Source: Antedon mediterranea (lineage: Eukaryota > Echinodermata > Crinoidea > Comatulida > Antedonidae). From it: DNA of 64,000 nucleotides. Where the stretch lies: NCBI RefSeq assembly GCF_964355755.1, contig NC_092677.1, forward strand, positions 5,771,001 through 5,835,000. The letters are read 5' to 3'. The position numbers and the translations under genes were made by a program. Below the pieces are notes generated by a model. The model was not told where the DNA came from. It ran no database searches and saw only the letters and a program-made list of their open reading frames with translations. Of this stretch, positions 1,361 to 62,080 are shown piece after piece (the first letter of the stretch is position 1; each line of letters starts with the position of its first letter).

Positions 1361-1399
1361 CTAATTCACTTCACCTTTTCTGACATAAATATAAATTGG
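1361..1399 (-). CDS. Minus receptor exon 18: terminal exon with stop
   Basis: Acceptor TATTTTAG followed by PIYIYVRKGEVN and TAG at 1363-1361. It continues phase 0 from exon 17. Two tyrosines (IYIYV) may add a final SH2 site. Confidence 0.6.
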   Translation of the reverse strand, partial: PIYIYVRKGEVN

Positions 1400-4300
1400 C
1401 TAAAATAACATTGGTGTTTGTAAATGTCATATTGGATGAAGATGGTTATTACTTACTTGAGTAAGAAGCTTCTGATCTGTAAACAAAAAAGTAAATCTTA
1501 AAACTTCACATGATCTTTAATTATTTATAATAAGTTTAAAACATACTGTATTTGCAAAGGGCTTTAATAAGAAAAAAAGCTTTGTTTACATGCTACACAC
1601 AACTAATAAAGTATAAAGTATATAACTATAAAGTAGAAATGGTATAATAAAATATTAAAATGATATGTCTATGCAGTGACTGGATAGGCATACTATTATA
1701 TAATTATTAATAATTAACTATTATAAGTTTTATTTCCTCTACATAGAACGTTGTTTAATGCAATTATAAACCAAAGAGTTATGATAATAAGCAGGCTAAA
1801 ATCAATAGTTGTTGAGATAATAAGATAAACTGTTAATATGGTATGAATGGCATGGAATGATATATAATATAATTGTTCACAAAATAATATCTAACGAATA
1901 TAGCATAGATTAATTGTGTTTTAAATAAATTAATGAAAGAATATAATAAAGCATTTACTAAATGGAAAACACAAAGCCGGTGTTATTGTCTGTAGAAAGT
2001 GTTATAGAATCTTTGAACAAAACTGATTTCATTGAGAGAAAAAACGATTTTAGGTACAATTACTTATGATAGAATCAGTGGTATGATGATGACTAAATTT
2101 CAATATTAATATTATCATTTACTTGTTATGATAATTAATATAGTGAAAATGATGTACATAGTATAGTAGTGTAATAATGAATAGTATAACGAATTTAGGA
2201 CAACAGCAAAGATTATTAGCATTAACTTATGAATATCAGAATATAGAATACATACATAGTAAAGATGGTGATGGTAAAATGCAATAAAATCATTAGGCCT
2301 AAACCATAAAGATTTTGCTACAAGTTTGGTTTTGCTAGTTTGTTTTAATTATTATTTTTACACCACAGACAGATTCTTTAAGATTGTATAAAAGCAAAGT
2401 GAATCATACGAATCATTGTATGATTTTTGTGAGATCTAGTGGAATTGCAAAACCACTCAATTTTACAAGCTTTGAGTTATATATCTTTGTTGTACTGGTC
2501 TCACAAAGTTATAGTACAGAAAATAGAGATTTGATGTGAATATGTAAAGTTTCGTGTTTGTAAAGATGAAACGACATTTACCTAAAACTAGCTTTAGTGT
2601 ATATGTAATTTTGCTTAAATTCTTTTAAAGCTCTATCAGAAAAATAAAAATTAAACAATCTAAACAAAATAAAATTTGCTGCACTATTAACAAAATAAAA
2701 TAACATTACCTTTCATATGAGTCTGTTGCTAGAACAATAAATAAAAAAATCTTTATCTTTAAATATGTTATGGTTAGCTGTGGAGAGGACAGACTCTGTT
2801 TTTTGATTAACTGTAATTTTTGTATGGTGTAAGTTTGAAAATTCTTTTTCTAATTATTGACAATTAGCTTTATGATAAAAAATTATGCAATATTAGTGAT
2901 AATAACATTTGAGAGTAACATTTATCCTTGATTTGCTATAATCATAGTATAAATACCAATTTTTTTTGCATATTTGAATCAATCAATCAACCAATCAATC
3001 GATCAGTAAATAAATTTGAATAGATAGTAGTTAAGTACTATTTCATACAACACAATAATCACAATAAAAATTCCATATATGTAATATAAATAATAAGAAT
3101 TACAATCATTTATATTAAATTTTATATTTCCTGCTGTTTCTCTTTTTTGACTGTTATCCATTTCCCTTGTATGTCAGACCTGCCTTGCTTTTGTTTCATT
3201 TTCATCGTTTTGAGCTTTGCCCTTTATTTGACATTTTTATGTGGTTTTAATAAATATACTATTATGAATTAATGAATATTATATATTTTAAACTGAACAG
3301 ACAAAAATAGCCATTGAGGTCATATTTCAAATTACTCACGATTACTCTTTGATTTTTCAAGATTTAGTTATGTATAGTACAGTTGCATAGTTTTTCGTAA
3401 ATAGGCTACTAGAAAGTTTTTCTACTTTACAAATTACCTAGGATGACGAATAGTAAAATTATACATCTAAATAAATTACTTTATAATACTATGGATAACA
3501 GGAGGACCTGATTTTATATTTACTATTTCAAAAACATTTATTTTTGTTATTATCTAATACACCTGTATTACCTTTCTTTACAAGCCTTCCCGTGGATACT
3601 TCCATATATGGTGTTTGTTGTCCATTATGTATAATCTTTCCTGAAGTACAAGCTTGTAAATCAAGATCTGCATATTGAATCTCTTTATTCTATAAATCAT
3701 CAAAACTAATCAATACATTAATACATATTCTTAAAAAACAGTTAATACAATTATTGAACCAGAAATAAAGCAATTAGATAAATAACTATGATTTAACGTA
3801 TCAGTTTCTAAAGAGTTTGTAATTCATTTTTTTATATATGTATTTTCTACAGCATATTTAGCAAGATTGCCTAAACATTAGAAATACCTTGTATTTATCT
3901 TCTTCAAGTTTAACCTTTGATGTTCCTATTGTACCATAAAAACAATCAATTAAGAATAACAAACATTATGGATAGGAAATTGCAATTGAGATTTAAATCA
4001 AAGATGTTGGGTTGTGTGACAGAGTTTGTTATTAACTAATGCAAAATTCATTTAAAATAGCTTTGGATATGTTCTTCTGATAAATTGAAAGTAACCCAAT
4101 AATTATCAACCTTGCAAAGAAAGAAAGAGTATTTTTAAATAATGATATAGGCCTAGATTATACCTTTCTTGATCAGCCTTCCCTTGGATAATTCCATATA
4201 TGGTGTTTTTCTGTCATTGCTTATTATCTTTCCTGAGGAACTGGCTTGTAAATGAAGATCTGCATATTGAATCACTTTCTAATAATAATCATAATCTAAT

Positions 4301-7300: not shown

Positions 7301-10300
7301 GATTCAAATAATGTATACTCTACATAAAAAAAAAACCTATTATATAATAAAATACCTATGGAAGGTTCATTATTAGATGCAGTTGATTGATTAGCATTTA
7401 CCTTTCAATCTTTTAGTATAACTGTATTGTGAAAATATAATGTTGGGTTTCCTTACCAACACATTTAATATGGTCGAACTTAAAGGTGTATACAACCATT
7501 TAGAACTGTTTAGTTTTACATTTTAAAAGTTGTAGTGTAATCTGTTCATTGAAAGTGTATCTGATTTTAGTGAAGAATAATTCATGTCTCAAAACATAAA
7601 TTGAAATAATGTTCTAAATCAATGAAATCTATGAAAAACCCAGCTGAAAGAAAATTGATTGGGGTCTTGTTTAAAATATTGAGGTTTTCTTCTTTTGTCT
7701 TTGTAATTTAAACCAGAAAAACTAATAGAAGAAACAAGAACTTGTTCATAACAAACCTGAACTTCTTGTGCAGTAGCTGCTGCTTCAGTTGCTTCAGCCT
7801 GGTTAGTAGGTGAACTTGATTTAGTTACAACAGGGCCCTCTGCACCATCAGGAACATCTCTTTCATTCGCCATCATTAATTGATACTCTTCTCCAGTTGT
7901 ATTACCATTTCTGTTAAGACAATAAAAACTATTACACTATTCAAAGTATTGCTAAGATACTACCATTTGTAACACCACTACCTTAATAGCAATTTTTAAC
8001 CATGCATGTTTAACAATATTTATCATGTATTACAAAATGAAAACGTTTGTATTAAACTCACCTGGAGCTTTCATGTTTCTTTTTATCTATATCATTGTAA
8101 ACAACTGTTTAAATAAAACAAGAAACAAAATGTAATGAAGACAAATTGGTATTAAATTTAACATTTGAGGCATTGACTGACATACAATGATGTATTCTTC
8201 ATGCAAAATTCACACTATGAAGTAAAATAGTTCAATCTGTATCTATAAAATACATAAAAGAAACGAAAAAAAAACAATGTATATATAAAGGACCCTTGGA
8301 AACAAGCTTTTGGGCTTTTATGTGTATGCTTTTGGTTTTATTTGTGTAAATGACCAACAAATGTTTCTTTACCACATTTGAATTATTGCATTTTATTGAC
8401 TATTTAATAAAAATAAATATCATCAAATACAGAGTGCAGAATAATGATAGTTCTTAGACAATCAATATAACTTACCCGATTTGTATTCAATACAAAAGAA
8501 TCCACAAAAGTAAAGACAGCAATAACAGACAAACTGACAGACTGATTTCCAACTACTGAATTGCTGTTGATTTGAACCAAGCACTTTGTCTTCTTTCTTT
8601 ATTTCAAATGTCTTGAACCTTGCAATACTTGGACGGTATTTAAAACTCATCACAACTGGTTTACCACCTTCAACTGTCACTGTATTAATACCTTTATTGC
8701 TCCACTCAATATTCTTGTAATACATGAAATCTAAAAATTAAATAAACAAAACTAAACTGGTAAAACTAGTATTTTTTTATTTTATTAATTTAGTCCCCGA
8801 AATATTTATTTACATGAAATATTCAATAAAACCTACAGAAAAAGGAAATTCAGAAAAATAGAAATGTTTGAAACATAACTCAGAACATAATAGTATAACA
8901 TTGAAGCGTTATTATGAATATGGCATGTAAAATATAAAGGCACTATTAGCTTAATAAAATAATTATCTTTACGCCATGGTTTCCTCGATATTTCCGTAAT
9001 TCAATAAGAATTTTACTTACAAACAAGAAGCAGTAACCATAAGAACAAACCAACAATCAAAACAATCAGGATGATGTGCAATGAACCCGAACCTGTTTAA
9101 AAAAATACTATTTCCAATATTACAGTGTAAAAACAAATGGATACAGAATTACAAATATAATTTTACAGATATTTAAACCAGAGAAAAGTAAAATTACTGT
9201 AATTATTTCACTTTCTCTGATTTTAAACTAATATTATAATATTATTGTTTAAAAACGCTGGCTAAAATCGTTTCATCTTTTTTTTAAATAACACAAAGCA
9301 AATGTAATAATATAAATTAATGCTGCTATTATGCATTCTTATTAAACGCAAGCAAGTGTAAGAAGATTGGGCTGAAATCAAATTAATTTACATATTTCAA
9401 CATTTATTGGCCCCTTTTGAAAATAAAGCAAGGCAGAAAACCCCTATTAATAATAATAATAAATGTCGTTACAGTTTTAAAAATTAATGGCGTTTGACGG
9501 ACTATAAAGCATCATTTTCTAATTATGCAGTTACAATTTGTTATAAACACAAATCATAAAATACATGATGGTATTGCAGGTTCAGTAACATCAAAGTTCA
9601 TTATTGAGCAACGTCATGCTACAGCTACTCTGTACGACTGAGAGCTGTCTGTGTTACGATGGTTTAGACGGTAATCTTGTTTACATAAATTCTGTTTTGT
9701 TCGATAAAGGAATTAGTACATGGTATGCACTGCAATGTAGTACAAGACGAGGTTTGTCCAAATATGTTTTCAGTTAAACTGAAGTTAATTAAATACCGCG
9801 TTAAAGATGTATTGTCCCCCAAAAGAATGAAAAATGAAGATTAATTAAATCAGACTTTGAATAGGTTTTTTTGCAGTTTCAATAAAGTTCATCACTTCCG
9901 TAGAAAAAAAATGAAAATAAATTATGTTTTCCGTTATAAAATGACAAAATAAATGGTAAAATTTAGCCAAAAATTCATTGGCTGGCAGCCAATTTGACTA
10001 TTTTTTTGCAGGTAAGAAATTTTTTTTAAAATCTAATTTTTGGTCAAAGTGGATAACTATTATGTGAAATTATAATGGTATATTCAACAAAAACATTTTA
10101 CATAATTATTTTTTTCAGGGGACAATACATTTTAAATAAAAAAACACCTCCTTAAAATAAACGCCTCTATTTAACATACATAGGCCTAAACATTTAAACT
10201 GCATAATGCAATTGGTATAATTACCTGGGACACAGTTACCTAGTGTTGTTGTACCATTTAGCTTTTCATTCTCTGCATAACATGTAAGACTTGTTTGACA

Positions 10301-13300
10301 TGTCTCATCATTAATTACTATAGTTGCTGTATTTTCTCCTTTCTTAACCACTTCTCCATCTTGTAATATCAATACTGATGATAGCTTGGGATAGCCCTCT
10401 GCTGTACATGTTGCAATACCATCTTCAGATGTAAAAGTAACAACAATAACTGAAGCGACAAAATCAGTTAATTTAGCAAAATGTATATAGATTGTGTAGG
10501 TAAATGTCTGTAATAGTATTACATTTTTTCTTAAATGAATTATAGATAACATACATTACATCATGTTATAATACATTTACAAAATCAGCAGAAGTGCATA
10601 TGATGGTCCTCTCTTTACTATGAATATACATTTTAACAACTAGGATATGGAAAACTTGACTTGCAAGAAATTTAGCTCACACTGGGAGTTGACCAGTTAG
10701 GTATGTACATTTTAATTTAAAAATTACAAAACCTGGTGATAATGTTGCAAAAAACTTCACGATTTGTCAATAAAAAATGCATGTACAAGCTATTAATTGT
10801 CATGTACTGTTAATTGTTAAGTAAAGTAATGTTTACCTACAATATACTATCAACTGTATTTCAACACTTGTTTTAGCATCCTCTCCTTTAAACTGATCAC
10901 TTTCTGCTTTACATGTATATATCCCACCATCTTCTTCAGTAGCAGATTTAATCTTAAGAACTGACTCTGTACTGTTATTGGTAATCTTATATCTAGAAGA
11001 ATTGTTGGTGTTGACTGTCTGTCCATCTTCATACCAAGTAATGTGAGGAATAGGATCACCATCAGGTTTACTACAAGTAAAGGTCACTGGTTGACCTTCG
11101 TAAACTGTTCTATGTGAGGCAGAAAGAAGTGGATGATCCAAATCTGAAAAACATAGTTTTTGAATTTAGTATCTGTTGTGTAATGTAGGGATTTCTGAAA
11201 AAAATCATTTATTTGTATTATAATCTACTTATAGAGGAACAGTAATAATATTATATGATTGAATAAAGTGTGAATATAATACATTAAATTGTCTTGTCAA
11301 TGTTTATTAATTTTAAATAAATAAATACCATAATTGATTTAACGAGAGCATTTTACCTATTTACTAATTATTTTTTTATGTACATTACGTGACTACTGTA
11401 ATTCTGAATAAATTGAAATTCAAAATAAATTAATAAACCACTTATACCAATTAAACAAACTGTATTTAAAATTAAATATAACTAGAGGGTGAGCGTGCTT
11501 CGCTCGCTTCCCGTCTAGGAAGTGTAGACGATGGTTCTCGGAATGATAATGACTCTGGTAAAAAGTTTTAGAAGGACATTCTGGCTTGGACGATTTCGAT
11601 CGGTTACCATTATTTAAATGCGTTTGATATTGGTAAAACTAAACCTACTCACTCACAGTGTCTTAGATGATTAATAGCGTTTTACGTATAGTGTTTATTG
11701 TAGATATGAAAAGTGGTAAAAAAGAATAACAAATGCTTGGTAAATTGTAGATAACAGTCCGATGAAATCTACTAAAAAATAGTATAATTGTGTAATAAAT
11801 ATAATACAATATTGTGTGTATAAATGTGGATGGGCGTTAATTAGATGGCATTTGGATATGGGTGGGGGGGGGGGGGAGTGGCGATAATTATTTTAATTGA
11901 TGTTTTAATGGGGAAGTGTTCCGGGCGTTTATTCAAATCAATACCATCCTAATCGGTATAATTAATACATTATTCCGCGACACAGTGAGCCGTTTTGGCC
12001 TAAGAAGGAAGACATTTTAGACGGCTTGCAATATGGGCAGAAGTATCTATGGTTCTGACGGGACACAGATAGCGCATAGTATACATGAGTCCTGGCAGCT
12101 TACTTGTTTTAAAACTCCCTGGTTGAAACCAACTATAGTTGAGGGCGCATCATGAGTTAGCAACCGTATAAACAGTGCTCCGTCTTCATTAAAAATAAAG
12201 TAAAGTTTTGCCAAAAATAGCCATAAGACAACTGTGCTACATAAGTGAGTATTACAATTTGGTTAATGCTGTCATCGTCTTTTGATCTAAAACTAAGAAA
12301 ATGGTCAGAAAAAAGGACCAAACTGAACGTACCCCTCCGGACACCTCAACGACCCAGGCGACACCCACCGAAGAAACCAGCTAAATCCAGTTATTAAGGC
12401 GGGAGATTAAAACGCTAACAACTGAAATGCAAACAAAACTGGACTCCATACTTAAAAATCAAACCTCAATTATGAATAGAATTGACTCAATGGAGGCAAA
12501 ACAATTAGATATGGAGAAATCCATTACTTTTACCTCCGATTCAATCAACGATCTTGAAAAGAAAGTAACAACGTATGATAGCGAAATGAAAGATATTTCA
12601 ACAACACTTGAAACAGAAAAGAAAAAAATTACCAGTATACAAAATGATATTCTGAATCTTGAACGGTATTCAAGGAGTTTTAACCTGAGATTTGGTGGGA
12701 TAACTGAGGAACCAAACGAAGATGCAACAAAAAAGATTAAGGAATTACTAAATAAAACACTCAACCTAAACGACATCGTCATTGAAACGGCTCATCGCAC
12801 AGGAAAACCATCAACAATAAGTGGTAAGCCAAGACATATCATTGTTAAATTTATATATCGACCACAGAGATTTGAAGTACTCAGAAGAGCTAAGTCGATA
12901 TTGAAAAATTCCGAGATGTTTGTACTAGAAGATAAGCCAGTAGCAGATATTATCAAAAGGCGAGGCCTGCGAGAAGTTATGAAGAAAGCGTATGAAGAAG
13001 GTAAAAAGACTGTCTTTAGAAATGGCAACCTTTACATTAACGGTAAAATGTATACATAACTTCTTTATTTTCGTTCGTTTGTTTTTAATTGAATTCAATT
13101 TGTGACTATATCCTGCCTAACTATAACAGCATTAAACCATATGCAGAAAATGGGTACCACTTATTGTATCCACTAGGAGAATTCAAACTGTACGGAATTG
13201 AAACATCAACACGATCGCGATTATGTGTTTACATAACCTAAACATTAGCAGGTGAAAGAATTGGCACACTGACTTAAATACCATGTTACGTAATCTGTTG

Positions 13301-16300: not shown

Positions 16301-19300
16301 TTCATCTGCATTCAATTTGATGCAGCCTCATATTTTAATGAATAAAATGTCTGAAAGCAGTACCTTCATCTAGTTCAGTGTCGTGTCGTCATTAATCATT
16401 CGTAAAAATATAGGTAAAAACCCCGATAATAATAATAACTGAGGAAGCATTGTGTCGACGGATCGTTAATCAGTACTCGAAAAAAGAGAAGGTGGTAGAA
16501 TGGGTGCGTATACACACAAGGAATAGCCCACAATAAAGTGCCCTAACCTGTTCAACTGTACTTCCTGTTTGTGTCGGCGGGGTCGCGAGCACGTGATGCT
16601 TAAGATATCTCGCCATAACATGAGCCGTCGAACGCAATTTAATGAATTTAATCGAATTACCGCTCTCGTAAAATTTAACTAGATCAGTACTTATCTCGCC
16701 CTAAGTTCGATATGAACCCAACTTATGGGTTGGTGATTTTCTTACAAATCGGCTACAGTATGTTAACGTTGGTAAATCTATCTCAGAGATTAGAAGGATC
16801 AACAGTGGTGCACCCCAGGGGTGTTTTCTGTCACCAAGTTTATTTACAATATAATACTAGTGAATGTCGATCTTCATGTAGCATGTGTCATATAATCAAA
16901 TACGCAGATGACATGGTACTGATTGGTCTATTGAAAAATGCTGACGATCATGTGTATAAGGCTGAATATGTTAAATTAATGTCATGGTGCAATGGCAATT
17001 ACCTTAAGATTAATTTTAATAAAACTAAAGAAATTATATGGGATTTTAGGAAAAAGAAAAATGAAAAAAGTTATCTGATAGTTAATGATCAGACAATTGA
17101 ACGTGTTCATGAAACCAAATATCTTGGTACACATATTGATGATCAACTTAGTTTTGAAAAAAATACGGCCAAGATAATTAAGAAAGGTCACCAAAGGTTA
17201 TATTTCCTAAGAAAGCTAAATACATTTAATGTTAGCTGTGGTACTTTAAAATTATTCTATGAAACAGTTATTCAATCAGTACTAGTTATCTCTTTTATTG
17301 CTTGGTTCGGTAATTTAAATGAAACACACAAGAAAAGTCTCATTAGAATTACTAAGATAGCATCAAATATAATTGGTTGTACGGTTAATGATTTAAAATA
17401 TCTTTATGAAAAACAGGTCTTAAGTAAATTAAGTAAAATTTTAGAAGATAAGAAACATCCATTACATATGAGATTTTTTAAGAACAAGTCTGGCCGGTTA
17501 CGGGCTCCTAGAGCTGATACGTCAAGAAACCGACTGTCTTTTGTACCAAATTCAACTCATATTTTTAACTCAAAGATTGTTAGATCATAATAGCGCACAT
17601 GCAATATATATTTTAAAGTTTTACTGTTGATGGATGTTTTAATTAATGTTTTTAAATTGTAAATTTGTTCTATGTATGATGTAATTATGAATGTTTTACC
17701 ATATTTTTCTGTCGAGGAAAACAATTTTTCCATGTAAAATTTATTTTATATGGAACGAATAAAGATTTGATTTGATTTGATTTGATTATACATTTATACG
17801 TTTTATATTAGAATGTGACGCAATTCATATATTTTTGCGATGCCACTTCTTTTTAATAAAACATAATTGAATTGAATAGAACTCAGAGTATGTTCTATTG
17901 TAGTATAATAGTACTTATACTTCCAATATTTTATTTATTTTTATTTTGCTTTAATCCAGTGGCTATGAATTAAAGTTTGGCTCAAACATTCAGATTGCTA
18001 CTCACAATATACAGTTAGAATAGATGGATTTGATCTTTCAATAGCTCCATTTGTTGTTATCAGACACTGAAATCTTCGTAGAGAATCATTTCTCATTGGC
18101 TGTGACATCACCAAGTCAGCTTTCCCAGGTTTTATGTTTAATTTAAAACGTACATTTGCTACAAGTTTTGTTGTAGATCCATCTTCATTTACTTCATCCC
18201 ATTGTATTACATCAGGTGTAGTAGAAGTAAATTGTGAATAATCACAAGTTATCACCACATCAGCATCACCTTCCTTGGTTGTCTGGTCAGATGTTGTCAG
18301 CAACTGACAGTCTGCATCTAAACAAATTAAGTAGATAATCAGTATATATCAGTATATAGCTTGTATGAATACTACAAGTAACTCTAACAACTAAGCTATA
18401 GATATTGCTAAGAAAATATAAACAAAAATGCACCTGAAATGGCAATGCATTGATGGTGAAACATGGTATAAAAACATTCTCTAAAAACATATGTTTTAAA
18501 TAATGATTTTAGAAACACATTTATATATTTTATGTATGAAAAGAAACTTACCCTTTTTAATAACCAGTAATATTACAATAAAATACACAGCTACAAATAA
18601 CTGGAAAGAACAGAAAATAAATGTATGTCATTAAATAAGAGACAATATTAATCTACAAACAAATTATATAATTTCTCTGAAATACTTTATTCAAAAATGA
18701 TAATCTAATAATGCAGTCAAAACTGTGAAATATGAAGAAACAGTGTGTCTATATAGTTATTCTGTTGTTCATGAGCATATTATCCACATTCATTTACAAA
18801 TTTCGAATGTTTTTTCTCTTTGGTATAGACTATGTGATACTTGCTGATTGTGTCATGTGCTTAACGTTATTACGTTTCAAAATGTCATGGGTAAGTATGC
18901 TCTGGCCTTAATCTAACCATCCACTTTAAATATACGAGTTTCATGGTACTGAGTGTGAAATCTTAAAACGCAAGCAATAAGCCAAATCCAAGCGTTAAAC
19001 AAACACAAGAAAAGAAAATTGTAACTACTGTTACTTCTATGAATTTTTTTTGAAACTGGAATATTTTCTTTCACCACAGCTAGATTAAAAACAAGTACCG
19101 GTATAGTGCATAGACATACATACTGGTATGTAAACACTCGTAACTGACTGTTATAGTAATCAAATATTTGTTAAAAGATTAACGGGAATTTTTAAACTGT
19201 CGAAAATATTGAGAACAGTGTCAATGAATTTTTTATAGCGCATTGTAATTCCCCCACCCTTTTTTTTCTTATTGTTACAGGGCACCTACATTATCACTAT

Positions 19301-23384: not shown

Positions 23385-23397
23385 ATCTGTTAGGGGA

Positions 23398-45374: not shown

Positions 45375-45426
45375 ATGTCAACATTTGTGTTTCTGTCTCT
45401 ACTGTTTCTTATTGAAAACACAATCG
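45375..45426 (+). CDS. Unit D exon 1: signal peptide
   Basis: Seventeen codons after a CTACTACATAG acceptor; phase 1 donor GTAAGT. Confidence 0.78.
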
Positions 45427-45549
45427 GTAAGTTTTTTTCAGGTGTACAACGGAAAGACCATTGTTCTATAACTATTTGTTGTGTTTACTTTAATAAAAAA
45501 AAAATTCAGTAAATAAAGATTTGGTTACTTCAGTGTACATATCTATATA

Positions 45550-45690
45550 TCAGGGAAGGAAGAGGGGAGAGGGAAGGGAGAGGGGGAGAGGGGGAGAAGG
45601 AAGGGAGTGGGGCGGGAAGAGTGGGGAGAGGGGAGGAGAAGAATGAGAAAAAGGGGAAGAGAAGAATGAGAAAAGGAGGAGTAGGAGAGC
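45550..45690 (+). repeat. GA-rich tract in intron 1 of unit D
   Basis: About 140 bp of nearly pure purine with GGGGAGA-like units. Reading frames across it on the other strand are low-complexity only. Confidence 0.8.
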
Positions 45691-46038
45691 GTTCGTGCGG
45701 GTGGCAACTGAATAAAACAAGGAAATTGTTATGCAGCACAATACATTCTTCAAACTAGGCATAATAATAATTGTGTTCGTCTTATTGAATGTACATAATA
45801 GGAATGCGGCTCTTATATATCGATGACCATAGAAATACCGAAAACTGTTCTATGATATATTGTTAATCATCCAGGTTCTAGATAAATATTCATAACACAA
45901 TTATATTCATAACGTGAACTTATTTACAAATATTAACTTATTCTTAATCATAATTCGTTCAAACCAGAACTTGATATCTATAGCCATTAATTGTTTCCAA
46001 TTTAGCATTCTATATTGCTAATTCTATTTATATTTTAG

Positions 46039-46335
46039 CCTCAGATGTTATACTATCTGTAGTAGAAGGTAATTCAATCACAATTCCTGGAGGTGGTATT
46101 CGCATTGACAAGATACATGCAGTAAGTTGGTTCAAAGGTGAAAAAGCATATCAATATCAACAAGGTATCGTTCATTCTAACAATCGTCAATCTGGCAGAT
46201 TTTCGATCGTTAATTCCTATGGAGATTTGATGATACAGAATGTAAGTAGAGATGATGCAGGGTACTACACTGTTCAAGTTATTGAAAGTGGCGAGGAACT
46301 TAGCGAGACCAACACATATCACCTGGATGTATATT
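46039..46335 (+). CDS. Unit D exon 2: V-like Ig without canonical Cys
   Basis: A 297-nt phase 1-1 exon, open: SVVEGNSITIPGGG, AVSWFKGE, GRFSIVNSYGDL and DAGYYTVQVIESG. Confidence 0.85.
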
Positions 46336-46729
46336 GTAAGAATAAAAAAATGTTTAATAATATTAGATCTTTAATTTAGATATTCTAAAATTAGATAAGT
46401 ACGGTATATGTTTTTTCAACATTTACAATACCAATCATATTTCAATAAATGAAAACATTCACTTAAGGATTGAAACAAATTAATATTACATTGATAATTC
46501 TTATTATTTCTTCCTATTCTTATAAGAACATTCGTGTTCTGTTTTTAAAATACTTACATTTTGTGTAACACTATGTTTTGTAATAACTTACATACATTCA
46601 TGTCAACATGTAAAACATTTATATATTAGATCTTAGTTAGCAGAGATATATATTTACCGATTCTCTGACAGTTAATGCATGCAATGTGATCACAAAAGAC
46701 ATATAGAGAGAGGAATAGCGCAGTCCGCT

Positions 46730-47860
46730 AATTGAGGCAACATTTAACATCAGTAGAATATTTCATATTGAGATTGAGCGAGTTGCTTCTAAAAACTATC
46801 ACACATGAGAATACGAGTACCACGACCTCTCAAATAAATTCATTCTCGATTGCAAACTCGTTACAAACAAATACCGTACTAGTTGCTGGAGTATAGGAAC
46901 TATGAGACTTATAAAAGCAAACATTTAATATGATATAATATGCCAACTGTTTGTACTAAGAAATTTGATTTGGCCGATTTTTGTTGTGAACTTTACAATA
47001 TTTAGTTAAATGTAATAAGATTGCAATGCAAATTGTTATTGGAATTACAACCTAAAAATACGATTTGATTAGTTTAACAATCCAATGTCAAAATCAGTTG
47101 TTATCGCTTCAATCGATCTTAGACTAAATTGCTAATTATGATTGTGAAACAATGGTATTAAATAAAATCGACAGCAATAAGAAACTTACTTTCACTCAAA
47201 TAATACATTATTGTTTTTGCAGAAAAGACGAGTAGGTCTGAAAGAAAACAAGTCTAAAGATAATGAACTTCAATATCAAGACATGCAATATGCGTCACCT
47301 CCTTCTCATTACCAGGAACTAAAACCCAGTAAGAAATAGATCACACGAAGGCGGAAAAATGTCAATACGTATGCAATTTCAAGATGACAAGATGACAATT
47401 TTCCTGAACACGTTTTATATTAAGTTCTCATTTACTTATAGATTTAATAGTAGGGGTATGAAAAGGTATGTAAAAACAAAAACGATTCTATACTAAAACT
47501 TAAATTAATAATTGTAATTTATAATGAACCACGCCTTCTACTAAACTACCTACATTTTTAAAGTTGATATAGTGCCATTAACAAAAATAATGATAAAACA
47601 TGCATTAATTATTTCTGTAAATAATGTACAATAAAAATAATAATTCAAACAGCGCAAACTAGAAGTAGGCCTAATGTGCGTTATGTTTTTTCCACTAGTC
47701 AAATTTGCGAATCGAAAGCGTCAGCTTACACGCATGCGTGTATTGTAAAGCGAAACAAATATGCTAAACCAATCAGAGCTCAGGAAATTAGTTATGACGC
47801 TTCACTTATGCAAATCTTAAATCTCAGCAGCAGACACGCGATATAAATGAAAATCGCAGC
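46730..47860 (+). repeat. Segmental duplication shared with 41540-42720
   Basis: Counterpart of the unit C 3' region, including the tail exon and flank up to ATCTCAGCAGCAGACACGCG. Confidence 0.82.
47222..47340 (+). CDS. Unit D tail exon
   Basis: Phase-0 exon: KRRVGLKENKSKDNELQYQDM then QYASPPSHYQELKPSKK and TAG. YQDM-x8-YQEL has ITAM spacing with Met in the first +3 position. No membrane exon lies between it and the V exon, so use by unit D would need a change of frame. Confidence 0.72.
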
Positions 47861-50171: not shown

Positions 50172-50229
50172 ATGGCGAGAATTGTATGCATATTTCTTTC
50201 ATTACTGATTTTATTCGAAAGCGCTATAG
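50172..50229 (+). CDS. Receptor E exon 1: signal peptide
   Basis: MARIVCIFLSLLILFESAI after a TCCTATAG acceptor; phase 1 donor GTAAGG. Confidence 0.8.
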
Positions 50230-53200
50230 GTAAGGGTTGTCAGCGATAAAAATCGCTTAACAAATGTGCACCTCCTCAAAACGTTGATTGATAAAATCAA
50301 TACTTTTGCATTATGATTTTGATATAGTATACACTTGTGTGTACAAGACTATTTTTTTAAATAAAATAATAGGATAATATTTTGTATTTATAATGTAAAT
50401 TTCTTTACTGGACACCAGATGATGTGCATTTATTATAAACTATAATGCAATGGTTTTTATGCATTTAGGTATGTTTAGTAATCCATATTTTAAAAAGGGT
50501 GCTTCCACAGACTACTTTGTGATTGTACGGTAGTATGTTTTTTTTTATGTAAACTATTTAATTATTATTTTATTATTATTTCATTTTTGCTGTGATTCAT
50601 AAATACAGATTAGTTTATAATATTAATAATAATAATAATAAATAATTTATATCTAAGCCTCGGATCGTATAAAAGAACTGTCAATAATTGAAGATGAACA
50701 AATCACAATCTATGCTGGAGGTGGCATTCCCATTGATAAAATACACGCGGTAATTTGGTTCAGAGGTAAAGAAGTATATGGAGAAAGACAAATTGTTAAC
50801 TCTGTTAGTCAACTTCAAAATGGAAAATTTTCAATCGGAAAAGTGTATGGGGATTTGATCATACAATATGTTGATATAACAGATGAAGGATATTACACAG
50901 TTCAGGTTAATGACGAGGAAACGGCTCGGACCACAACGTATCACCTGGATGTGTATTGTGAGTTATTTCCTAACCATTTCTATACATTAATGTAATAGCT
51001 TTTATAGAAGATGAACTTTTTAGTTTATTTATGCTAGTACAGTGATACTTTATAAAATAATTATATGAAATGAAAGTAATGCGATTTTCTATTCAGTACA
51101 CTCTGATAACATAATGAACTAGGTAGTGTTATTCATATTTTTTACTTTGAATATCTTCTGGTCTAAGTAAGCATGTATTTTAAAACTAACTCTTCCCAGT
51201 ATATTTAAATAATACTATCACTATCATCTTTACAGATATGGATTCTCCAAATTTCATAGCATCAATCGATAATAGCAATAGCCACTATGCATTCTACTGT
51301 ATATGGGGTAACATATATCCCGAAATGGAACCGAAAGTAACATGGACACTTAATGGAAATTTATTAAATACATCAACGCCTAAATACAGTGTAACAGATG
51401 AAGGGAAACGTTGGAACAAACTGGTTATTTTTGAAAATATGTCTGAGAATGATTTTGGGAACTACTCTTGTCGTATTACTGTAAACCTGGATGAGGGTAC
51501 TATGGAAAAGACAAGCAATTTAGAAGAAATATGGCAAGCATCTAGTTCTGGTAAGTAAAACATAACATTTGGTTCTAAAGCCTTGTCTACACTATCAAAC
51601 TTTATGGGACACCAAAATATAATGTGCCCATATCTGGACATGATTATGTCACCTCACTACCATAGTAGTATTTTTTGTCAAATTAGTTTGTGTGCAGATT
51701 AGACAGAGCTGGAACCTAGTTCAGATCTATACCGTATATCATAGCAATAACAAAAGCGTAAGCGCAGTAGCGTCCTGTAAAGATATAGAGCCTAAGTGTA
51801 TTATGTTGTTTTGAATTAATACTAGATACTTTCAACGGTTCATTTAGATTCATCGTAATTAGGAAAGTTTCGTGATGAGTCATATTATAAGTAAGGAAAT
51901 GGTGATAGAAAGTAAGCACAGAATTGAACTGTCGCCACTAAAAAGTTATATTTATGTAAATATTTGTTTCATTTCAGCTGCTCCATCTATAGAGACGTTT
52001 TCGGTAATCGAAGGAGACCGAACCGTAATTCCAGCTAGAGTCGATGTGCCCATAAACACAATACAATCAATAACTTGGTACAAATTTAAATCACCACAAA
52101 CAAACTATACAATTGTTAGTTTAACAAATCGAACCAATGGCCGCTTCTCAATTGATGGAACTGGCAAAAACTACGGTGATTTGATCATACAACATGCTGA
52201 TAGAGAAGATGCGCGTTATTACACATGTCAGATTTTACAAAATAGAAATTCTAGAGAGAAGACCATTACGTATTATTTAGATTTATACTGTAAGTTTAGT
52301 ATATCCTAGTGTATAGATATTTTGGCGATTAGACCTAACGTTATAATATTATTATAAAAACGTTTGAAGCATGGATAAAAAGATCTCATGTAGCTGACTC
52401 TATCACTTATGATATAATAATATTATACACATAATTATGAAATGAGGTAAATAATTCCATAAGAGGAAAAACTACTTACGTTTGATAAATAACTATATAA
52501 ATAAAACCCAATACAATTTCCAACAATAATACAACACACAAGATCGCCTACTCTTAAATTCAGAATGAGTTGTGTTATTCCATTTTTATTTCAGATCTAG
52601 TTTCTCCAACTCTCACAACATTCACTGAAAACAGTCCTACTGGTAACAAATATGGTTTCTACTGCATATGGTTTAAAATGAACCCAGAGATGGAGCCGTA
52701 CGTAGCATGGCTACATAATGGACATATATTAAAAACCTCAACGACTAAGTACAGTGTGATAAAGGACGAAGAAAGGAGCATACAAACACTCATTATTCTG
52801 GAAATGACTGAAAATGATGTTGGAGAATATGCGTGTCGTATTACGATTGAAACAAAATTAGGAATGCCTAATATGAGTAAAACAAGCACCATCGAATACG
52901 TTACGATAAGTAAGTAGGCCAACCCCTTTTTACTACCCTTGTCACACTTCTTTCTGTTACCTGCAATAACTTTAATATCTAAAACTAACTAATTTTCTTA
53001 GCATTTTGTTCTGTTTCAGGTGCGTTGGATTCACCTTCGTCAACAGGCCTATCAAGTACATTAATAGGAGGCTTAGCTACAGTGACAGTTGTTTGTATAC
53101 TTGTCTCTATCCTTACTTGTGTAATAGCACGTGTTATGTATGTAAGTATTTCAAATTATACAGGAAATAAAAACACGGAGATGAATTAAATTCAACAAAT

Positions 53201-53816
53201 GTACTGCATAGTAGAACTTTGACTTTGAATGATAATGTTAATGATGACGATGACTATGACACAATGATGACGATGACGGTGACTATGACACGATGGTGAT
53301 GATGATGATTACGATGATAATAATGGTGCATAATGACCATCACGTGCAACTGGAACTTACATTTTTGTCTCATTTAGTATTACGTTTGCTTGGCCTAAGC
53401 ATTACGTTTTAGATTGATTGGTATTATATTGCTCGTATCATTTTGTGACTTGAAAGAAAATACATTAGTCATTCAGTCGGTTCTGTTTATGATTTGAGAG
53501 TTATATAATAACTTAATGACACTGAATAAAAACAACAGAAAGTCTAAACTTTTACTTTCAATCAATATTAAAACACAGGAATTATTTAAAAAAATTTATA
53601 TTCTTTTGATAGGAAAGACGAGTAAAGCAAATTAATTCTAAACGTAAAAGTCCTCAATACCAAGACCTGCAATTTATGCCACGCCCTGACCAGTACCAAG
53701 AGCTTACTATAGATTCTAGAATACACGACGGTGTCACCAACAAAAATAAAACAGATAGAAAAATCTCGGAAACGAGTTCGAAGGTTAACGTTGTTTATGA
53801 AGACATACCTAATTAA
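50172..53816 (+). CDS. Receptor E: four-Ig receptor (V, C-x-W, V, C-x-W) with ITAM-like plus ITIM tail
   Basis: Coding exons: 50172-50229, 50658-50957, 51236-51550, 51978-52289, 52595-52909, 53020-53141, 53613-53816; 1626 nt, 541 aa, all phases consistent. The ectodomain is a duplicated V plus C-x-W pair, then a membrane helix. The tail reads PQYQDLQFMPRPDQYQEL, that is YxxL-x8-YxxL as in an ITAM, and ends with NVVYEDIPN, a V-x-Y-x-x-I ITIM. In vertebrates an ITAM recruits Syk/ZAP-70 type kinases; here this is inferred from the motif. It looks intact. Confidence 0.87.
50658..50957 (+). CDS. Receptor E exon 2: V-like Ig1 without canonical Cys
   Basis: A 300-nt phase 1-1 exon: SIIEDEQITIYAGGG, AVIWFRGK, GKFSIGKVYGDL and DEGYYTVQVN. 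Confidence 0.86.
51236..51550 (+). CDS. Receptor E exon 3: C-x-W Ig2
   Basis: A 315-nt phase 1-1 exon: FYCIWGNIYPEMEPKVTW and FGNYSCRITVN. The Ig ends with a short Ser-rich linker (WQASSSG). Confidence 0.88.
51576..51711 (+). mobile_element. MITE with GTCTACACTATCAAAC ends, copy in receptor E
   Basis: It opens AAAGCCTTGTCTACACTATC and closes with ATTAGACAGAGCT, with the shared inner words GTGCCCATAT and GGACATGAT. It lies in the intron between Ig2 and Ig3. Confidence 0.65.
51978..52289 (+). CDS. Receptor E exon 4: V-like Ig3 with F-strand Cys only
   Basis: A 312-nt phase 1-1 exon: SVIEGDRTVIPARVD, SITWYKFK, GRFSIDGTGKNYGDL and YYTCQILQN. It is closer to the V domain of receptor A than to that of B-D. 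Confidence 0.87.
52595..52909 (+). CDS. Receptor E exon 5: C-x-W Ig4
   Basis: A 315-nt phase 1-1 exon: FYCIWFKMNPEMEPYVAW and VGEYACRITIETK. The usual Gly after Trp is Phe. Confidence 0.87.
53020..53141 (+). CDS. Receptor E exon 6: transmembrane helix
   Basis: A 122-nt exon, phase 1 to 0: SSTLIGGLATVTVVCILVSI followed by LTCVIARVMY. Confidence 0.86.
53225..53335 (+). repeat. GATGAC-type simple repeat in last intron of receptor E
   Basis: Tandem GATGATGAC / GACTATGACAC units on the plus strand. Confidence 0.75.
53613..53816 (+). CDS. Receptor E exon 7: signalling tail
   Basis: A 204-nt phase-0 terminal exon. It starts ERRVKQINSKRK (basic, near the membrane), then YQDL and YQEL eight residues apart, and ends VVYEDIPN with TAA. 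Confidence 0.88.
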   Translation, partial: ERRVKQINSKRKSPQYQDLQFMPRPDQYQELTIDSRIHDGVTNKNKTDRKISETSSKVNVVYEDIPN

Positions 53817-55467: not shown

Positions 55468-55513
55468 ATGGCAACATATATGTTTTTGCTCTTTCTCATC
55501 CAACAGACGACAG
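55468..55513 (+). CDS. Unit F exon 1: signal peptide
   Basis: ATG three bases after a GTTATTAG acceptor-like site, 15 codons, ACA G|GTAAG donor. Confidence 0.7.
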
Positions 55514-55799
55514 GTAAGATATCATTGTAATAAAGTGAAGAAAATTGATGGGGTGGGGTTGTGAATTGTGTCAGTTTCGCCCCTCGGCCGAAAAAAGTGT
55601 TATTTGTCTAGTATAAAGATATGATACAAGGAATGAAAGTACCTGGAAGGATCTACTACCGTATTCGATATCGACACCGGTGGACCTTTTTGCAGAGTAA
55701 ATTGAAGTGGTGAACTACGATATATCAGTGAATTTTTGACAATATTATGTGTACAGGTATTTAAATATTAATTTCCCACATTGCTTCTGTTACCTACAG

Positions 55800-56150
55800 A
55801 AAAGAAGAGCATCAGTAGAAATTCATTCTAAACAAGATCTACAATACCAAGATGTGCAACTTTCTTCATTCCCCTCCGTGTACATCGATTCTAACATAGA
55901 CAACGGTGTTATCTATGCAAATACAGAGGCCGGCAATATGTCGGATAGGTGGCCGAAGGAAGACGGAGCCGGCAAAATGCTGGATGCGTGGCCCAAGGAT
56001 GACGTAAGCAGGAACATGGCGGATGAATTGCCAAAGGGCGGCGTTACGGTGAAATTTTCGGATGCGTGGCCAAAGAGCGGCGTTACGGTGAACATGTCGG
56101 ATGCGAGGCCGAATAAGGATGAACTCAATTATGAAGTTGTGAATTATTAG
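55800..56150 (+). CDS. Tyrosine tail exon with five 13-residue repeats
   Basis: Phase-0 exon after TACCTACAG. It starts KRRASVEIHSKQDLQYQDVQ with YQDV-x8-YIDS, a weakened ITAM-like pair, followed by VIYANTE. Then come five repeats of 13 residues (39 bp) of the type NMSDAWPKDD/GG V, richer in GC than the surroundings. It ends ELNYEVVNY; LNYEVV is an L-x-Y-x-x-V ITIM. The acidic, Trp/Pro-containing repeats are not known to me from other receptors. Confidence 0.8.
   Translation, partial: KRRASVEIHSKQDLQYQDVQLSSFPSVYIDSNIDNGVIYANTEAGNMSDRWPKEDGAGKMLDAWPKDDVSRNMADELPKGGVTVKFSDAWPKSGVTVNMSDARPNKDELNYEVVNY
55930..56124 (+). repeat. 39-bp coding minisatellite, five units
   Basis: Units share GGCAA.ATG.CGGAT.GGTGGCC-like cores with in-frame length 39 bp, so copy-number change would not break the frame. 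Confidence 0.8.
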
Positions 56151-58410: not shown

Positions 58411-58456
58411 ATGGCAACTTACCTGTTTCTGCTGTTCCTTATTCAACAAACGATAG
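58411..58456 (+). CDS. Receptor G exon 1: signal peptide
   Basis: MATYLFLLFLIQQTI with phase 1 donor G|GTAAG; TTTTAGAG just upstream may act as acceptor of a 5' UTR intron. Confidence 0.8.
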
Positions 58457-61400
58457 GTAAGATAGTGCAAGGTTTGATATGGGAGTAGGGTGTGGTTGAT
58501 GCTCTTCTCAAAGTCAAATGAAATATATCATGGGTTCGTCTACATAGTCTAAATAGTTCGTCACTGGGTAGACGAAACCATGATATATTTTTATTTCACT
58601 TTATTTTAATACAAAAATACATAGAGAACTGGACTATTGTGTGTAAAATGCCAGTTTTACCCGACAGCGGAGTAATCGCGTATCGCGTCGACGAACAGAT
58701 AGCATTATCCTATTATAATTATTTTAACAAATTATTTTATTTTTAGTCTCTCATGTTCTACTATTGAACGACGATAAAACGTTCTTTTAATACAATAAGT
58801 TGTGTTTGTTATATTATCTGATCTTATCTTATCAAATATTACTATCATTAAGATGATCGAAATTAACTTTCTTTTTAGCTTCACAGACTAGACGTCTGCC
58901 GATAATCGAAGGTGAGCAACTATTAGTGATCCCAGCTTTATCTTGTCTGTCACCTGCTGAAGTAGATTCGACCAGTTGGTTCAATGGTACAGGAACACAT
59001 CCAACTAAATTACTCGTTAATTCTGCTAATAATTCTAAATTTGGCAATTTCCTAATCAATGACATTTATGGCGATTTGATTATACAACGCGTAAAGAGGG
59101 AGGATGCTGGGCTTTACACTTCACATGTAGTTGCAATTGACGAAGTAAACGGTTACACAAATACGTATCATTTAGAAATATACTGTAAGTTATTACGGGT
59201 TTTATTGTTAGTAGCAACAGTAGTTACATAATGTAAAAGATTATCTAAGGTGATATAACTATTAAACAGGTATTGTCCCCAAAAAAAACATGAACAATTA
59301 ATATTAAATTAAATCAGACTTTGAATAGGTTACTTTGTAGTTTTAATAAAGTTAATCCCTTCCGTAAAAAAAATAAACAAACAAAAATAATGTTGTTTGA
59401 TATAAAATGACAAAATAAATGGTCAAATTCAACCAAAAATTCATTGGCTGGCAGCCAATTTGACTATTTTGTTTTAAAATTACAGTTTTTTCATGTAAAT
59501 ATATATATTTTTTTCGATTCAATTTTTGTTCAAAGTGGCTAACTATGTGACATAAAATGGCATATTCAACAAACAAATATTTAATTTAATTATTAGTTTT
59601 ATTATAGTTTATTAAACTATTTACTATTAGACCATATCTAGGCAAACTGTAGTAATCTAGGAAGTGTGGCTTCGAGGCAACGTAAACAATTTCATGTTTA
59701 GTACATTCTAACTTCTGGAAATGACAATTACAAATCTAAAAAGTTTGTATGATGAAAATGTAAAATGCTTATAGGCCTATTCTTCTATTAGCCTATTTTT
59801 ACTGGCGTCATTTATTCTAAACCCACTTTTTTCTCTATCCAAAGATATTGATTTTCCAACTCTCACATCCTACACTGAAAACAACAGTAGTGAGATCAAC
59901 AATGTTATATTTCACTGCGAATGGGGTGAAATTTATCCCCAAAACGATCCGAACATAACGTGGATACACAATGGAAAAACTCTTGACATAGACACGAAAA
60001 CGACCAAATACAATGTGATCACAAAAGAGAAAACAAGTACACTGGTTTTTCATCAATTTTCTGACACCGACTTTGGGAACTATGCTTGTCGTATCACCGT
60101 TGAAACAAAGAAAGGCAATATGACCAAGACGAGTAATTTAGAGGAGATTGGGCCGCAAAAAGCGGTTTCTAGTAAGTTACCGGTATAAATACAATTTCCT
60201 ATGGGAAGCGACTGTAGGGCCTACAAATTATTATAAAATAATATGAATAATGTGTGAAGGCAATAATAATCATTTTTATGTTATAGATGTTGATGAAGAC
60301 ACTAGTAGCAATAAAAGCATCAGAAAAAGATCCCTAGGCCTGTGGTTCATTGTGTTTGTGTGTGCGACGGTATTTATTGTTTGCGTTATTGGCGTTTTAT
60401 TGTCAATTACCAACAGAAAGAGTAAGAATGTAATTTATTTCTATTTCATATTTAAAAAAATGATATTGTGCACTTCCAAATTATTGAATTAACTCTTAAA
60501 TCTACTTTAAAAAAAATTAAATAAAGCAAGAATCTATACTAAAGGGGGCGCTATGTCTTTAATAAATGTATCATTCTTTCAATATGTAACGAGATAGTTT
60601 TCAGTAGAGTTTCAATGTTAAAAGCAACTCTTTAGTTTCAAGTGCTGCATTAACATATTGGTACCACATTTCAACTAACGTGTGCAATACGCATTACATT
60701 GTCACTAGTCTATAGAGGGCGATCTATATTTAATACTACCAGAGCCGGCCATATAAAGAGTTACGACATTGAAAATTAGAAGCCATTTTTGTGTCAAAGA
60801 ATTCGCACGCTGAGGGCGCGCGCGTCTCTTTTGTATAGCGTTTTCCTGTAGTTCCATGCATTATTTTTAGATTTTGTTGTCAATGAAATAACGCTTAGAT
60901 TCCGTTTTTATTTTAGTAAATAATGTTATTAATGGTATTAATTTGGTAACATATATATATTGTGTCTATAATAACAAAAGAATAAATGCTAGGGCCTACA
61001 TGCAAGTCAGGATACATCAAAGCATGAACCAATACAAAAAACACACAAATTCACCCCTCTTTTATACAGTATATGGCTCTCTGTGTGTTTTTGACACAAA
61101 CTTTCAGAGACTCGTTCATCATTTCATTTGTAATAATTTGCCTTTATTATTTTAATATTGTTCATACCTATTCAATATATTAACAAATATATCCACGACA
61201 CTTTATTATTTTATTTAGTCATCAAAGCATGCATTATGAATTGAAAATATTACATAATTGTTATTAATGGGACGTAGTTATGGGATGTTTTGTTCCAAAA
61301 TCAATCAATCGAACGTTATAATGTACTAGCGTACGCGCGCGCAATATTCTTTGGCGCAAGTGGTTCTGTACGCTGTGCACGTCGATATTCCACCGTAAAA

Positions 61401-62080
61401 TGTGCAATTACATTTTTTTAATATAAGAAAAAGTTTAAAGTAATTTCTTGCTCCTATACTTTACATGCATTAACGGAGACAAGTTTGACACAAATTGATC
61501 TGCATATCACGTGACTTAAATCCAATGTCGTAACTCTTTATATATATGGCTCTGAATACTACTGTACCTGATAGAGAGTGTGCTATATTTTAAAACCGAA
61601 TAGTTCAGTTCAACTAATAATGCTGTACGTAATTTGTGAATACTGTTTCAATTATTACAAAAACAATTACGAATTGAATTTTTTTAATGATACATTAATT
61701 GTTAAATGGTTTGTTGGTGGCGATACTGAGGCGGTTACTTATATCACCCAGTAGGGCCTACTGCCAGAGGCAACTGATCATTTTCTAAATAATCCCTAAA
61801 TCAGTGAAAAGGCAGATATATGTTGTATGTCACCCAATAACGTTTTATTATTGTGTCTATAGGGAAAAGAGATAGCAGAAATTTATATCAAACATCAGAA
61901 TTTACTTCAAGCATTACAGGAGGCCCGGACAACGGAGATAATTTACCGGTACCTCCATCATACCTAGACGTTACCGAACATGTCAATATTCCGGATGTAT
62001 GTGATGGCACTACTATGGCAACTATTGAAACAGAAACTATTTCAGTAAATTGTTTAGTGTATGATGAAATTCCAAACTGA
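58411..62080 (+). CDS. Receptor G: two-Ig receptor with ITIM-like tail
   Basis: Coding exons: 58411-58456, 58879-59184, 59845-60171, 60287-60421, 61863-62080; 1032 nt, 343 aa, consistent phases. Order: signal peptide, V-like Ig, C-x-W Ig, membrane helix, tail. The membrane exon ends in phase 1 instead of phase 0, and the tail is unrelated in sequence to those of A-F. The tail has SYLDV (YxxV) and CLVYDEIPN near the end, an L-x-Y-x-x-I ITIM. It lacks the YxxL-x8-YxxL pair, so it would be an inhibitory member if the motif works. Confidence 0.85.
58879..59184 (+). CDS. Receptor G exon 2: divergent V-like Ig
   Basis: A 306-nt phase 1-1 exon: IIEGEQLLVIPALSCLS, TSWFNGTG, FGNFLINDIYGDL and DAGLYTSHVV. 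One Cys lies beyond the B strand and the F-strand Cys is Ser. Confidence 0.84.
59270..59596 (+). mobile_element. MITE with TATTGTCCCC end, copy 2
   Basis: Matches 9808-10129 over nearly its whole length, including TTCATTGGCTGGCAGCCAAT, but its right end is worn. It lies in receptor G intron 2. Confidence 0.72.
59845..60171 (+). CDS. Receptor G exon 3: C-x-W Ig
   Basis: A 327-nt phase 1-1 exon: FHCEWGEIYPQNDPNITW and FGNYACRITVETK. Confidence 0.88.
60287..60421 (+). CDS. Receptor G exon 4: transmembrane helix
   Basis: A 135-nt phase 1-1 exon: a basic SIRKRS before the helix LGLWFIVFVCATVFIVCVIG and VLLSITNRK after it. The donor A|GTAAGA joins A to GG of the next exon (Arg). Confidence 0.82.
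61863..62080 (+). CDS. Receptor G exon 5: cytoplasmic tail
   Basis: A 218-nt terminal exon after GTGTCTATAG: KRDSRNLYQTSEFTSS, PPSYLDVTEHVNIPD and CLVYDEIPN with TGA. Confidence 0.82.

Follow-up and report, generated by a model that had tools for sequence, protein, structure and literature searches.

A probable complex of paired activating and inhibitory Ig-type receptors in an echinoderm genome

Do immunoglobulin (Ig)-type receptor genes that stand head to head in an invertebrate genome form a paired-receptor complex, in which related ectodomains are joined to opposite signalling tails? We asked this of a window of 64,000 nucleotides (contig C8, positions 5771001-5835000, from a genome of 354 Mb in 18 contigs) that has a receptor gene, M, on its minus strand and seven receptor genes, A to G, on its plus strand. 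We consider it likely that the genome, which is placed below among the echinoderms, holds a large complex in which activating and inhibitory receptors of the Ig superfamily are paired; the window appears to be the edge of it. About 47 genes on C8 share an ectodomain of three Ig domains, the N-terminal one of V type, and carry, where the tail is readable, either a tail with an immunoreceptor tyrosine-based activation motif (ITAM) or exons of the type of the inhibitory (ITIM) and switch (ITSM) motifs. The gene architecture is very probable and the signalling reading probable; the most likely explanation is that paired receptors encoded in the germline serve immune or allorecognition cells.

The head-to-head unit of the window is made up of M and A, and its parts are as follows.

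18006..18317, minus strand: gene M Ig1, V-type (AlphaFold2 (AF2) model with a predicted local distance difference test score (pLDDT) of 87.5; Foldseek; 50 genome matches)
10841..11143, minus strand: gene M Ig2, I-set (Pfam Ig_3 1.4e-17, I-set 3.5e-17)
10225..10449, minus strand: gene M Ig3, short Cys-rich Ig-like domain (by comparison with A Ig5 and relatives; no Pfam match at E<=1)
9021..9092, minus strand: gene M transmembrane (TM) exon, SGSLHIILIVLIVGLFLWLLLLV (a phase-compatible cassette; relatives keep the same order)
8476..8730, minus strand: gene M exon q, 84 amino acids (open frame, genome matches)
8062-8104, 7757-7910, 7206-7269, 6033-6058 and 5637-5756, minus strand: gene M cytoplasmic exons c1, c2, c3, c4 and c5
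4511-4548, 4164-4278, 3888-3925 and 3572-3689, minus strand: gene M alternative 3' exons a1, b1, a2 and b2
18318..27218, no strand: M/A spacer, one of 18 head-to-head spacers, with a reverse-transcriptase frame of long interspersed nuclear element (LINE) type
27219..33845, plus strand: gene A, 617 amino acids, five Ig domains (open spliced model, AG/GT borders)
27219-27267, 27775-28098, 28922-29233 and 29777-30112, plus strand: gene A signal peptide, Ig1 (V), Ig2 and Ig3
31080-31355, 32041-32277, 32970-33082 and 33639-33845, plus strand: gene A Ig4, Ig5, TM and tail

Ig3, Ig4 and Ig5 of A match Ig1, Ig2 and Ig3 of M in the same order, at 33, 30 and 33% identity (tblastn of the shared domains, E 1.3e-7, 6.6e-9 and 2.4e-11), a homology that a preliminary description of this DNA had already proposed; weaker matches of M Ig2 go to three further Ig exons of the plus strand (E 0.002 to 1.7e-6). 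The A tail has an ITAM, YQELKVSALPAIYKEL (YQEL-x8-YKEL), followed by the C-terminal ITIM-like SIYENI, and the hydrophobic run of its TM is without a charged residue. Pfam recognises A Ig1 as V-set (5.4e-11), Ig2 as I-set and Ig4 as Ig_2, with weak matches for Ig3 and Ig5.

The motifs of M are of the inhibitory type. Exon c5 carries the ITIMs IVYASV and VIYAKV and then a stop, to which the phase chain through c4 is open. Exons b1 (IQYADL and TPYMEL) and b2 (IQYADL and TPYMEV), both ITIM-type, lie with a1 and a2 downstream of that stop on the DNA and are in phase after c3. A single M tail with all of the ITIMs is ruled out by the stop in c5, and with it the earlier proposal that one receptor carries five ITIMs plus an ITSM. 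Since c5 ends in a stop and the b exons can be joined in phase only as an alternative 3' end, M would have two alternative tails, between which the motifs, which are real, are divided. Shuffled a/b tails produced four broad-form motifs in 1 of 5000 cases and two strict ITIMs in 164 of 5000, and shuffled c5 tails two strict ITIMs in 69 of 5000. The stop is specific to M, because the c5-like exons of two relatives, L036 and L038, continue beyond its place.

Paired-receptor logic had been proposed for this locus from the window, and it is supported more by the rest of the genome, through the kinds of tail and the identities of Ig1, than by the window. An M Ig1 query gave 50 genome matches (family counts here are lower bounds): 47 on C8 between 4.70 and 5.80 Mb, A Ig3 among them, two on C3 and one on C4. 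The family is thus clustered, with 47 of 50 matches inside 1.1 Mb. We retrieved 32 M-type loci, covering 33 of the 50 matches, and analysed M with them; their identity to M is 55-85% per domain. The exon order Ig1-Ig2-Ig3-TM-q-c1-c2-c3-c4-c5-a1-b1-a2-b2 is shared by M and L036, which lie about 1 Mb apart; c5 of L036 matches M c5 in its second part only, and b-type exons were found on C3 as well. Open borders could be given to 98 of the 99 Ig exon matches in the 33 loci (the exception is L033 Ig2) by a routine that favours stop-free borders; L040 and L043 showed Ig1 only.

Two kinds of tail follow this ectodomain. Among the 32 loci and M, 16 have an ITAM-homologous tail, one of them (L017) without the tyrosine pair, and 13 have exon q; genome-wide, ITAM-homologous tails gave 24 matches at E<=0.1. 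The pattern Yxx[IL]x6-12Yxx[IL] is kept in 12 of the 15 tails of fetched loci that remain when L017 is excluded, and when A and E are added to make a set of 17 tails, the strict ITAM (spacing 6-8) is present in 11, against a shuffle mean of 0.06, and the wide form (6-12) in 14. For single tails the shuffle values are 0.008 (A) and 0.002 (E). The activating member is recognised by motif and spacing only. The L017 tail, homologous by tblastn (E 4.8e-4) and without a YxxL pair, was taken as ITAM-type in the tree, identity, head-to-head and partner comparisons. Three ITAM-type genes were assembled whole, L020, L022 and L034 (402, 403 and 398 amino acids), each open from signal peptide to stop, and in the four ITAM-type loci examined the TM hydrophobic run is again free of charged residues. 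On the inhibitory side, ITIM motifs are present in M, L036, L037, L038 and L039, five of the 13 q-type loci.

By sequence, the ectodomains on opposite tails are homologous, and the N-terminal one is as alike between the kinds as within them. For Ig1, genes of different kind are 65.6% identical, ITAM-type genes among themselves 65.5% and ITIM-type genes among themselves 66.7%; the corresponding values are 70.9, 69.0 and 77.1% for Ig2 and 63.1, 61.8 and 70.2% for Ig3. The Ig1 tree needs 7 changes of tail label (shuffled mean 9.9; 19 of 500 shuffles as low for ITAM), the Ig2 tree 3 and the Ig3 tree 4 (0 of 500 shuffles). Because support in these trees is low, and the bootstrap unsettled on two of them, we limit their reading to this: Ig1 looks less bound to the kind of tail than Ig2 and Ig3.

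The order of the genes on C8 adds a second line of evidence. The M-Ig1, ITAM-tail and q matches were ordered along the contig and labelled by hand. Adjacent double Ig1 matches were taken as one, and two q exons for which no Ig1 was detected were counted as genes, which gave 47 genes: 22 ITAM-type, 17 ITIM/q-type and 8 without a tail label. Head-to-head neighbours occur 18 times, against a strand-shuffled mean of 11.1, and 0 of 20000 shuffles reach 18. Where both tails are assigned, the two members are of opposite kind in 12 of 12 pairs, M/A included, a result matched in 6 of 20000 shuffles of the labels; among these pairs are one without a detected ITIM-side Ig1 (q at 5079584) and one with L017. 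Two units, of which M/A is one, are reversed, with the ITIM-type gene on the minus strand and the ITAM-type gene on the plus strand. In three of six fetched spacers the starts given by candidate signal-peptide exons on the two sides lie about 1.8, 2.1 and 2.8 kb apart, the minus-side candidate of the 2.1-kb spacer being unlike its relatives. Two spacers are 90% identical, a recent unit copy, and the others share short stretches only. The 12 opposite pairs are not independent events, because the units are at least partly duplicates; the pattern is that of an architecture which duplication, at least in part, has spread, and not of repeated independent origins. Other arrangements occur as well: at C8:4703535-4743004 (minus strand) ITAM-type genes stand head to tail about 5 kb apart with no ITIM-type match between them, and at C3:26142694-26194789 there is a small second group with the ITIM-type L037, an ITAM tail (C3:26179138-26179314) and another M-Ig1 match.

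The N-terminal domain has a V-set fold, by Pfam in A Ig1 and by its model in M Ig1, where the Pfam V-set match is weak (0.027). The AF2 model of M Ig1 (pLDDT 87.5, from an alignment of two sequences) was compared by Foldseek with known structures, and the 50 rows listed consist, apart from one T-cell receptor (TCR), almost wholly of chains from antibody entries, light chains for the most part, at E 2.6e-7 to 1.9e-6 and TM scores of 0.69-0.82. The top row, chain L of an entry whose title names human NCX1, is presumably from the antibody fragment (Fab) of that entry. No match of M Ig1 to sequences in the PDB was found at E<=0.1.

Exon q is found in ITIM-type genes, with a separate TM exon alongside, and was seen in no ITAM-type locus that was retrieved. 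It has 19 places in the genome, M's own included; one frame is open in 13 of 13 loci, while each other frame has stops in all 13. It has no Pfam match, and its AF2 model, strands followed by a hydrophobic Cys-rich helix, was too weak (pLDDT 54) for a fold assignment, which we dropped. Either the TM exon or q can be skipped, because both are of phase 1-1, and possibly the two are alternative membrane exons.

The remaining plus-strand genes were, like A, spliced by reading the DNA; the models of A, E and G have AG/GT borders, and Ig exons are of phase 1.

36185..38278, plus strand: gene B, signal peptide, Ig1, Ig2 (with an in-frame TAG) and TM; broken or truncated, no tail exon found
38488..42169, plus strand: gene C, signal peptide, Ig1, Ig2, TM (GC donor) and a frame-shifted tail; likely broken
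45375..47339, plus strand: gene D, signal peptide, Ig1 and an ITAM-like tail exon; incomplete, with neither Ig2 nor TM exon found
50172..53816, plus strand: gene E, 541 amino acids, four Ig domains (open spliced model)
50172-50229, 50658-50957, 51236-51550 and 51978-52289, plus strand: gene E signal peptide, Ig1, Ig2 and Ig3
52595-52909, 53020-53141 and 53613-53816, plus strand: gene E Ig4, TM and tail
55468..56150, plus strand: gene F, signal-peptide exon and tail exon; incomplete, with neither Ig nor TM exon found
58411..62080, plus strand: gene G, 343 amino acids, two Ig domains (open spliced model)
58411-58456, 58879-59184, 59845-60171, 60287-60421 and 61863-62080, plus strand: gene G signal peptide, Ig1, Ig2, TM and tail

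Three of the seven genes, A, E and G, are intact, open from signal peptide to stop, and with the Ig exons of M they bear out the earlier claim of multi-Ig receptors on both strands. Plus-strand ITAM pairs with a terminal ITIM-like sequence, the pattern first described for the array, hold for A and for E, whose tail has the ITAM YQDLQFMPRPDQYQEL (YQDL-x8-YQEL) and then VVYEDI (Pfam, Ig4, I-set 7.2e-7); the G tail has the terminal motif (LVYDEI) without an ITAM, and the other four genes are damaged or partial. In the tail of D the pair is YQDM-x8-YQEL, whose first I/L position is occupied by M, and in F it is a degenerate YQDV-x8-YIDS, with LNYEVV at the end. One ITIM-like motif in a tail is by itself weak evidence (shuffles reach it in 938, 614 and 828 of 5000 cases for A, E and G); what speaks for the terminal motif is that the same C-terminal place recurs in all three.

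Partners for both kinds of tail can be proposed. The genome has 53 SH2 matches, and among the 18 stretches retrieved there is one exon closest to SYK (E 2.7e-37, single exon) and another closest to PTPN11/SHP-2 (E 5e-39, single exon). ITAM-type and ITIM-type receptors may be made in the same immune-type cells, perhaps through a shared promoter region. Once a ligand binds, the tails would be phosphorylated by a Src-type kinase; a Syk-like kinase would dock on the ITAM and start a response, and an SHP-2-like phosphatase would dock on the ITIMs and damp it, so that the outcome for the cell would be set by the balance of activation and inhibition, as with vertebrate natural killer (NK) receptors. 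Duplicated and varied N-terminal domains could provide a range of ligands, microbial or allogeneic. We put forward only tentatively, as a rather doubtful extension, a germline NK-like echinoderm system of divergent ITAM/ITIM units with bidirectional promoters, which would serve graft rejection and self/non-self discrimination and in which V domains would be swapped between backbones.

Several observations weigh against the paired-receptor reading. The candidate first exon of M, identified by its match to the signal-peptide exons of relatives, is without an in-frame ATG, so M itself may be silent; four of the seven plus-strand genes (B, C, D and F) are damaged or lack exons; and L036 b1 has an in-frame stop. 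M and A are not close twins, because they are only about one third identical over their common domains. ITIM exons were seen in only five of the 13 q-type loci; of the other eight, L041, L043 and L044 were read to 3.5 kb only and L016 and L019 to 1-2 kb past q, and no ITIM-exon match was found in about 7 kb past q in L024 or in 2-3 kb past c2 in L028 and L029. No tail was found in the fetched DNA of L025, L032, L040 and L046, and the genome-wide q search finds a q exon downstream of L040 Ig1, at a distance of about 6.5 kb. The Ig1-to-Ig1 distance in the 18 head-to-head pairs, which are neighbours among family matches only, is 2.8-43 kb, and the units come at least in part from duplication. In the six of 18 units compared, a gene resembles its partner no more closely than it does non-partners (ranks 1-13 of 13 or 14, with L032, whose tail is not assigned, put on the ITIM side), so partners as coevolving twins are unsupported there. 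Average dN/dS, the ratio of nonsynonymous to synonymous substitution, is below 1 in every domain (ratio of means: Ig1 0.52, Ig2 0.44, Ig3 0.54, q 0.62; close pairs: 0.75, 0.66, 0.81 and 0.64), which gives no support to diversifying selection; selection on the family is relaxed and dN/dS is not above 1. Strong positive selection on Ig1 had been hinted at by codon-position counts and was not upheld by dN/dS.

Three other explanations take up parts of this evidence. The damage could mean that the array is mostly decaying and ridden with retrotransposons, with few functional genes: the four defective plus-strand genes, the missing ATG of M, the stops in L036 b1 and in the M-Ig1 match at 4736057 and the reverse-transcriptase frames beside M all point that way, but A, E and G are intact, as are L020, L022 and L034, nearly all Ig exon matches have open borders, by the routine described, q is open in 13 of 13 loci, and dN/dS is below 1. 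We regard general decay as very improbable. Alternatively, this could be an ordinary adhesion or neural-type Ig cluster in which the tail tyrosines are endocytic (YxxPhi) or Grb2-binding and resemble ITAMs and ITIMs by chance. YxxL and YENI do overlap endocytic and Grb2 motifs, and the single ITIM-like motifs of A, E and G are within chance; yet ITAM spacing is kept in 14 of 17 tails (6-12) or 11 of 17 (6-8), one ectodomain is found on two kinds of tail that are opposite in all 12 decidable head-to-head pairs, and the family is greatly expanded, with broken copies. We hold this explanation to be unlikely, if somewhat less so than decay.

A greater share of the probability, though still a minor one, goes to an allorecognition locus of the kind known as Alr in Hydractinia and fuhc in Botryllus, whose receptors would test the tissue of conspecifics, by way of homophilic or polymorphic ligands, and not microbes. 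ITAM/ITIM signalling is tied to both of these known allorecognition systems (PMC12065747), graft rejection is reported in sea urchins and sea stars (PMC2248247), and the majority of the family lies in one cluster; the head-to-head partners, however, are not specially alike. Such a locus is a narrower form of the paired-receptor explanation, which we prefer in its general form.

The host was placed from two matches. One is to let-7, above the cut-off at 62.7 bits, and the other to bindin (PF02084), 107 bits over positions 98-163 of 238 (66 positions), with one TAA inside the stretch; neither had a match in 14 control genomes, of which those named are prokaryotes. We take let-7 to mark bilaterians and bindin to mark echinoderms, so the genome is placed as bilaterian by the first match and as echinoderm by the second, and Hydractinia or another cnidarian as host is ruled out by the two together. 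GC content per 4-kb block of the window is 27-34%, and the word TAGGCCTA occurs 21 times in it, about 0.5 being estimated from base composition. A search for COX1, meant for reading the mitochondrial code, gave no match. RVT_1 frames lie in the M Ig1-Ig2 intron (2.6e-9) and in the spacer of M and A (1.2e-33). To the right of the window, plus-strand genes of the V + Ig2 type go on (L002 and L004, at window coordinates of about 73000-84000).

324..1030, minus strand: Ig exons of a further receptor, of another Ig type, that leaves the window leftward (Pfam V-set 4.9e-8 for 321-665; DSGKYNC at 923-943)
12385-17590, plus strand: LINE-type reverse-transcriptase frame in the M Ig1-Ig2 intron
20670-23652, minus strand: LINE-type reverse-transcriptase frame in the M/A spacer

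We know of no receptor system identified for graft rejection in echinoderms, and this complex, with its signalling motifs, its Syk-like and SHP-2-like partners and a sequenced map, would be a concrete candidate locus. It would also put receptors with V domains and balanced ITAM/ITIM signalling in echinoderms, alongside those known from cnidarians, tunicates and vertebrates, and the back-to-back arrangement of its units would permit direct testing of co-regulated opposed receptors.

Like the paired receptors of vertebrates (LILR, KIR, Siglec, CEACAM, SIRP and CD300), the echinoderm genes have related ectodomains with opposite tails, clustered, with gene birth and death. They differ in that the activating member has an ITAM of its own and the TMs read without a charge in the hydrophobic run, whereas many vertebrate activating paired receptors use an adaptor, CEACAM3 and FcgRIIA being exceptions. 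They differ too in that head-to-head neighbours recur 18 times and in exon q, with no Pfam match. SIGLEC11 and SIGLEC16 are head to head, about 9 kb apart (PMC5701461). Mostly generic Ig models of Pfam match our genes, and no homology to the LILR, KIR, Siglec and CEACAM families was seen beyond the Ig fold.

The domain plan of Hydractinia Alr includes a spacer region, and we liken Alr to the complex by description, not by sequence. The extracts of its description give a cluster of 41 genes (PMC11999971) of invertebrate Ig-type with ITAM/ITIM-type motifs, which Botryllus receptors bear too (PMC12065747). The host differs, being a cnidarian, while the let-7 and bindin matches speak for another placement here, and head-to-head units of opposite kind are not mentioned in those extracts. 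The Botryllus fuhc receptors (fester and FcoR) are likewise from a deuterostome invertebrate and have ITIM and hemITAM motifs; in what the excerpted source gives (PMC12065747) their ectodomains are others, with an Ig/Sushi region, and they are set apart by description, not by sequence. Oyster CgIgIT2 has the plan of gene A, five Ig domains, a TM and a classic ITAM, but it is a single mollusc receptor for which the portion of the source consulted describes no paired complex (PMC11999971), and the salmonid NILTs, as far as the extract goes (PMC3022915), share V-type domains, ITAM or ITIM tails and a multigene cluster, but are teleost proteins with one or two Ig domains. The claim that the locus had no described equivalent gives way, then, before the analogues in print (Hydractinia Alr, Botryllus and oyster CgIgIT2); for echinoderms, no paired receptor was found among the matches listed in the open-licence literature. 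By its architecture the complex is a paired-receptor complex, and by descent we would place it in no named family.

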